The translations under genes were made by a program, and so were the position numbers. Shown here in pieces: positions 61,784 to 62,233 of a stretch of DNA of 64,000 bases. How positions within the stretch are numbered: the stretch's first letter is position 1; every line of letters starts with the position of its first letter. A model generated the notes under the pieces. That model did no database searches, was not told the origin of the DNA, and was given only the letters and a program-made list of their open reading frames with translations. The stretch is from Bacillota bacterium (GTDB taxonomy: Bacteria > Bacillota > Sulfobacillia > Sulfobacillales > Sulfobacillaceae): assembly GCA_021821465.1 (NCBI GenBank), contig JAKACM010000001.1, positions 1-64,000 of the forward strand. Direction: 5' to 3'.

Positions 61784-62233
61784 ATGCAATTGGGGGACAC
61801 AGCACCTGAAATCCAGGTCCAAGCCACAAATGGAACCACCTTTTCATCCCGTGAACACACTCGGCGGGGGCCACTCATCGTAGCCTTCTTTCCGTTGGCT
61901 TTTACCCCTGGCTGAATCCAAGAACTGTCCACTTGGAGAGGGGACTTCAAAAAAATCCAAAACGCGGGGGCGTCTCTTATCGCCTTAAGCACTGACCAAA
62001 CATATGCACAACGGGTGTTCAAAGAATCATTGGGGGGCTTGCCGTATGAATTAGGGGCGGATTGGATGCGCACGGTGTCCCAGGCTTATGAGGTCTACGA
62101 CACGACAGGAGGATTTGCCCAGCGTTCTGTTTTTGTCCTCGATCGTGAGCATCGACTGATCTTTCAAAATACGGCCTTTCAAGCTGGAAACCGGGAACAT
62201 TATGAAGAAGTGCTTAATGTCTTGGCACGCTGA
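61784..62233 (+). CDS. Peroxiredoxin (AhpC/TSA family) with in-frame TGA (61913-61915) at the peroxidatic cysteine position; candidate selenoprotein
   Basis: MQLGDTAPEIQVQATNGTTFSSREHTRRGPLIVAFFPLAFTPG[TGA]IQELSTWRGDFKKIQNAGASLIALSTDQTYAQRVFKESLGGLPYELGADWMRTVSQAYEVYDTTGGFAQRSVFVLDREHRLIFQNTAFQAGNREHYEEVLNVLAR. Prx PxxxTxxC motif with TGA for C; same frame stays open for 105 further codons; RBS aaaggaga. Confidence 0.75.
61922..61948 (+). promoter_or_regulatory. Candidate bacterial SECIS hairpin directly downstream of the in-frame TGA
   Basis: GAA-ct-GTCC-a-CTT-[GGA]-GAG-g-GGAC-TTC; GGA apical loop starts 19 nt after the TGA. Paired by eye only. Confidence 0.5.

Follow-up and report, generated by a model that had tools for sequence, protein, structure and literature searches.

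The nearest described parallel to the hairpin analyzed here is the fdhF-type bacterial SECIS (bSECIS) of E. coli, an in-frame hairpin located just 3' of a UGA codon, for which published limits comprise a distance of 16-37 nt from UGA to loop, an upper stem of 4-16 bp and a minimum free energy (MFE) of -7.5 kcal/mol or lower (PMC13188914). Within the window, by which we mean the whole stretch of 64,000 nucleotides analyzed (contig JAKACM010000001.1 of the Bacillota bacterium assembly GCA_021821465.1), a hairpin that follows an internal TGA shares this placement, and also a loop of 3-4 nt that starts with GG and an upper stem of 7 bp; SelB and tRNA-Sec are encoded in the genome, as in E. coli. 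With a spacing of 19 nt and 7 pairs it falls inside the published range, its energy lying at the limit. It differs from the fdhF type in this marginal energy, in a bulged or mismatched A and in a pairing register that depends on the lineage, and its binding by SelB is a prediction.

The protein has its own parallels. PrxU of Eubacterium acidaminophilum and the Sargasso Sea peroxiredoxin family (PMC1088965) share with it the AhpC/TSA assignment, the motif PxxxTxxU, which has been described for selenocysteine (Sec) peroxiredoxins (PMC13188914), and Sec in place of the peroxidatic Cys. Unlike PrxU, however, the protein of the window reaches only 40.7 bits on NCBIfam NF040737, far below the cut-off of 270, is 149 residues long and of the 1-Sec type, and belongs with its orthologues, 22 in all, to a supported tree group of their own. 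A PrxU of 178 residues is named in the proteome of Sulfobacillus thermotolerans (PMC7409299); given this length, it is probably not the counterpart of our gene. The closest solved structures by sequence are Mycobacterium AhpE and archaeal PrxQ-BCP (PDB 1xxu, 2cx3), both of which carry Cys where the window protein has its predicted Sec, and have no SECIS. AhpE is a 1-Cys peroxiredoxin and resembles the window protein in having a single peroxidatic residue.

The frame runs from an ATG to a terminal TGA at 62231-62233 and encodes 149 residues including the predicted Sec44, and its product matches Pfam AhpC-TSA with 80.6 bits (E 1.2e-22; cut-off 26). The internal TGA lies in PLAFTPGU, that is, P37-xxx-T41-xx-U44, and aligns with the active-site Cys of PDB 2cx3 and its relatives. 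Because the protein contains no Cys besides the residue at position 44, we assign it to the 1-Sec type. The features of the locus are listed in Table 1.

Table 1. Features of the predicted selenoprotein locus, in window positions.
Feature	Position	Strand	Basis or remark
Shine-Dalgarno AAGGAG	61771..61776	+	read directly; 7 nt upstream of ATG
Gene of predicted Sec-containing 1-Cys-type peroxiredoxin	61784..62233	+	translation, Pfam match, 22 orthologues continuing through TGA
Predicted UGA codon for selenocysteine, peroxidatic Cys position	61913..61915	+	alignment to 2cx3, orthologue codons
Putative SECIS hairpin core	61927..61945	+	GUCC 61927-61930 pairs with GGAC 61942-61945
Apical loop GGA(G)	61935..61938	+	GG within Trp codon TGG 61934-61936
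Extended stem with outer GAA/TTC, as proposed earlier	61922..61948	+	outer three pairs not conserved

We compared the source genome (a draft of 5.0 Mb, here G000) with 60 relatives. The gene is present in 22 of these genomes, all of the same order, and the other 21 orthologues show 39-88% protein identity to that of G000, the nearest named relatives being Sulfobacillus benefaciens (AMDSBA1, 87%) and Bacillota MAGs. The host is therefore probably a Sulfobacillus or a near relative of that genus. Every orthologue has a single internal stop, always TGA at the codon of residue 44, before and after which the frame stays open. In the wider family this codon is TGA at 72, TGC at 32 and TGT at 5 of 109 loci, and nothing else; these loci include copies of the same gene, so that some of the TGA loci are duplicates, and the proportions are not a census, because the scan that recruited the distant relatives favors its own peptide patterns. 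A tree of 90 proteins unites the 22 orthologues and requires only three changes between Sec and Cys overall, and Sec is therefore old here. A search of viral contigs yielded no relatives. TGA at the same codon also occurs in betaproteobacterial MAG loci of a KNQVSGF type (L107, L114-L116, L121, L122, L127, L132 and L133), three of which (L115, L116 and L132) are titled Bordetella parapertussis, yet their gene falls close to those of uncultured Betaproteobacteria and these labels look doubtful.

The machinery for Sec is encoded in the source genome, as SelA (552 bits), SelB (361 bits), SelD (357 bits) and a tRNA-Sec with the anticodon UCA (66 bits). SelA and SelB were each found in 20 of the 22 genomes that carry the peroxiredoxin gene, and a single one of these, a draft 63% complete, is without SelA, SelB and a tRNA-Sec at gathering level. 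Conversely, two genomes of the same family (G010 and G019) lack SelA, SelB and tRNA-Sec, and the peroxiredoxin gene is absent from them too. SelB and tRNA-Sec were not detected in the near-complete draft G006, nor SelA and tRNA-Sec in G036, likewise near-complete, both of which have the gene; these absences probably reflect assembly gaps. A less filtered search for tRNA-Sec in five doubtful genomes gave nothing above the gathering score, perhaps because the drafts have gaps or the tRNAs are divergent.

At least four Sec genes appear to be present in G000, as three further genes contain an internal UGA: those of SelD (within SGUGCK), of the formate dehydrogenase FdhA and of a second peroxiredoxin. 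The SelD hairpin has a GGA loop 17 nt after the UGA on a stem UAGGUCC/GGACCUA, that of FdhA a GGUCU loop at 18 nt, and the second peroxiredoxin a strong hairpin whose loop, AGUUU or GUU, lies 37-38 nt after the UGA; in all three, G is the first or second base of the loop. A Sec-containing formate dehydrogenase has already been published for Sulfobacillus (PMC4378227). The second AhpC/TSA peroxiredoxin, with its in-frame TGA in DFTPVU, is located at 17296-17685 of another contig of the same genome (C165; locus L145).

A reading of the sequence alone had proposed a stem-loop immediately 3' of the TGA, and the letters that it gave for 61913-61948 are correct: TGA, and further on the segments GAA, CT, GTCC, A, CTT, GGA, GAG, G, GGAC and TTC. 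Also confirmed is that the GGA at 61935-61937, with G first, begins 19 nt past the UGA. The fold itself holds up in its inner GUCC/GGAC stem; its outer GAA/TTC pairs are not conserved, pairs 11-35 and 12-34 (counted from the T of the TGA) being broken in 3/7 and 1/7 sequences. A61931 is bulged or mismatched, and above it CUU (61932-61934) pairs either with 61939-61941, closing a GGAG tetraloop, or with 61938-61940, closing the GGA triloop of the original proposal. On 61922-61948 the proposed structure has an energy of -4.9 kcal/mol and the variant with bulged A61931 and the tetraloop -6.0 kcal/mol, and the minimum of -7.2 kcal/mol is reached by the tetraloop hairpin without the outer pairs. 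This core of 7 pairs gains slightly from its flanks (-7.5 to -7.7 kcal/mol). The energetically favored loop is thus GGAG.

Whether MFE folding forms this stem depends on the stretch that is folded. When the UGA is included (61913-61960) the MFE structure is a different one, no better than shuffled sequences (z 0.11), and the GUCC/GGAC stem has a probability of about 20%. Omission of the first 3-9 nt raises this to about 0.5-0.95, varying with the ends chosen, and the tetraloop form is then some five times as frequent as the triloop form. A ribosome with the UGA in its A site covers these first bases. Dinucleotide shuffles combined with plain folding of the 48 nt that include the UGA were tried and discarded as uninformative on a SECIS. 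The terminal TGA of the gene also precedes an equally stable fold, but one whose loop has no early G. A search of the window against Rfam returned no family above threshold at 61927-61945.

Across the orthologues the hairpin falls into three pairing registers; from lineage to lineage the pairing slips by 1-3 bases, but the GG of the loop stays 19-20 nt from the UGA. In register A, the window type (STW), positions 15-18 pair with 30-33 and 20-22 with 27-29, 19 being bulged, and 100% of the cells are paired, although with 7 sequences per register some shuffles match the observed pair counts. In pair 15-33 of this register GC is replaced by AU, both changes being silent at third codon positions: CUG or UUG becomes UUA (Leu) and GAC becomes GAU (Asp). 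Register B (VLW; 14-22 with 27-35) shows no double change and a 20-29 mismatch in 4/7 sequences. Register C, that of the second family (S/T-S-W), pairs 14-21 with 25-32 around five-base loops, and its pair 16-30 changes from AU to UA. Covariance across homologues, which had been suggested as a check on the stem-loop, thus reveals compensatory changes at 15-33, at 21-27 and, in the second family, at 16-30. It leaves the form of the loop undecided: in the triloop register both bases of pair 21-27 change, UA becoming CG, whereas in the energetically favored tetraloop register the same bases yield one-sided changes. A GGA triloop also caps the SelD hairpin of G000, so that both forms are plausible.

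Statistical tests place the signal in the set of orthologues. Compared with synonymous recodings, the window taken alone gives p 0.027 when codon usage is pooled and p 0.10 when it is that of the gene itself. Decisive was a profile in which every 26-nt stretch of the gene was folded for 12 representative orthologues, with 60 synonymous recodings each. This profile peaks at +22 nt, counted from the T of the TGA, with a combined z of -6.0 (mean energy -9.3 observed, -4.5 expected), while nothing elsewhere in the gene goes beyond z -2.3 and the most extreme null value is -3.6 (60 draws, 300 positions). All 22 orthologues together give z -5.4 to -5.5 at +22, where 37 Cys homologues reach z -2.4 to -2.7. 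In six Sec paralogues of the WTPVU/FTPVU type, encoded by other genomes of the family, the peak lies at +30 instead (z -5.2), consistent with a SECIS at a different distance from the UGA. The betaproteobacterial KNQVSGF-type loci show no clear structure excess at +22, and no SECIS was located in them. The codons of the hairpin have also changed less than the rest of the gene predicts, as a comparison of four closely related species pairs gives 4 synonymous changes against 11 expected (one-sided p 0.013). The general bSECIS rules, to which the sequence-only reading had appealed, are indeed satisfied but weakly specific: 81% of the Sec homologues and 62% of the Cys homologues pass a generic scan that applies the published limits (Mann-Whitney p 0.07), a Cys homologue being counted when it has a rule-fitting hairpin of -7.5 kcal/mol or better. 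With so many Cys homologues passing, the rule is poor evidence by itself.

Taken together, we consider it very probable that the hairpin at 61927-61945 is a bacterial SECIS for the insertion of Sec at position 44 of the peroxiredoxin. The opposite view takes the hairpin for a product of chance and the TGA for a nonsense mutation, or an error of sequencing, in what used to be a Cys peroxiredoxin. It can point to a codon one base away from TGC or TGT, to a window hairpin that is unexceptional when taken alone (p about 0.03-0.1) and to a single-sequence fold no better than shuffles. Such decay is nevertheless hard to reconcile with a TGA common to all 22 orthologues, which span two families and different genera, with an excess of synonymous over non-synonymous changes on both sides of it in 11 of 12 orthologue comparisons, and with a hairpin conserved through compensatory changes, and we regard it as extremely improbable. 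The preference for Sec over decay that was first expressed from the stem-loop has accordingly gained ground, through the conserved TGA, the Sec machinery, the structure excess at +22, these compensatory changes and the shortage of synonymous ones.

It is also very unlikely, if a shade less so than decay, that a reassigned or suppressor tRNA reads the UGA as Trp or Cys. Whatever amino acid TGA stood for, the frame would stay open, but 5 of the 22 orthologues, including the gene of the window, terminate with this very codon, the genome has a tRNA-Sec (UCA) and SelA, SelB and SelD, TGA alternates solely with Cys codons and never with Trp, and a hairpin at a set position would serve no role. Slightly more room, though still little, is left for a hairpin conserved for mRNA stability, pausing or coding constraint, with Sec insertion depending on something else. 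The small structure excess of the Cys homologues at the same place (z -2.4) is in line with this, and probably arises from coding or composition; the excess in the Sec orthologues is much larger (z -5.4 for all 22), was measured with recoding that preserves the protein, and comes with a position and loop inside the published bSECIS limits (PMC13188914). What counts against a SECIS is the modest energy of the window hairpin (about -7.2 to -7.7 kcal/mol), its competition with an alternative fold in which the UGA takes part, the weak specificity of the generic rule, the two near-complete drafts in which SelB (G006) or SelA (G036) went undetected, and the small number of sequences behind the pair counts.

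If the hairpin is a SECIS, a ribosome reaching the UGA at 61913 would find SelB, carrying GTP and Sec-tRNA-Sec(UCA), held near the A site through the GG-starting loop, by homology with fdhF of E. coli, where the loop holds SelB-Sec-tRNA. Sec would then be inserted as the peroxidatic residue of a 1-Cys-type peroxiredoxin, which would reduce peroxides through its selenolate. It is in this case a prediction from sequence that SelB binds, that Sec is inserted and that the enzyme is active as a peroxidase. The mechanism of SECIS and Sec peroxiredoxins is known; the selenoprotein lineage is a new and well-supported example of it.

The GG of the loop is supplied by a TGG codon for Trp, seven residues after Sec, in 22/22 orthologues. 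Trp never occurs at this position in the Cys homologues, which have Phe in 31 of 37, nor among the residues of the other Sec homologues (Phe 20, Tyr 7, Leu 3, Val 1). The invariant TGG and the sliding register suggest selection that keeps the loop rich in G and its distance from the UGA constant. We speculate, on the basis of this one clade, that the SECIS might dictate the protein residue, with SelB reading the GG-loop position on any stable stem and Trp being kept for the RNA, a reading that we offer as tentative and somewhat more doubtful than not. If the codon is kept for the RNA loop, this would be a clean case of a recoding signal that shapes a protein near its active site.

The selenoprotein lineage is an addition to the acidophiles of bioleaching and acid-drainage communities, and standard annotation would truncate the peroxiredoxin gene at its UGA. 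For the recognition of such genes, the customary SECIS rule for single sequences has little specificity, and the profile of synonymous recodings over orthologues is far sharper.

Other features of the window include its sole Rfam match, a cobalamin riboswitch (RF00174, 89.5 bits) at 33511-33655 on the minus strand. Its 3' end adjoins the minus-strand ORFs 32761-33519 and 31429-32730, which, judged from their translations, look like a precorrin-2 dehydrogenase and a uroporphyrinogen-III methyltransferase, respectively. Closer to the peroxiredoxin gene, 62539-63258 (minus strand) encodes a Ser/Gly-rich probable lipoprotein, possibly a spore germination lipoprotein, with a GerD core match of 22 bits that falls below the cut-off of 29.5. 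The minus-strand ORF 60471-60767 encodes a TrpR-like repressor (Pfam Trp_repressor, 89.4 bits), which we take to be of the YerC/YecD type.
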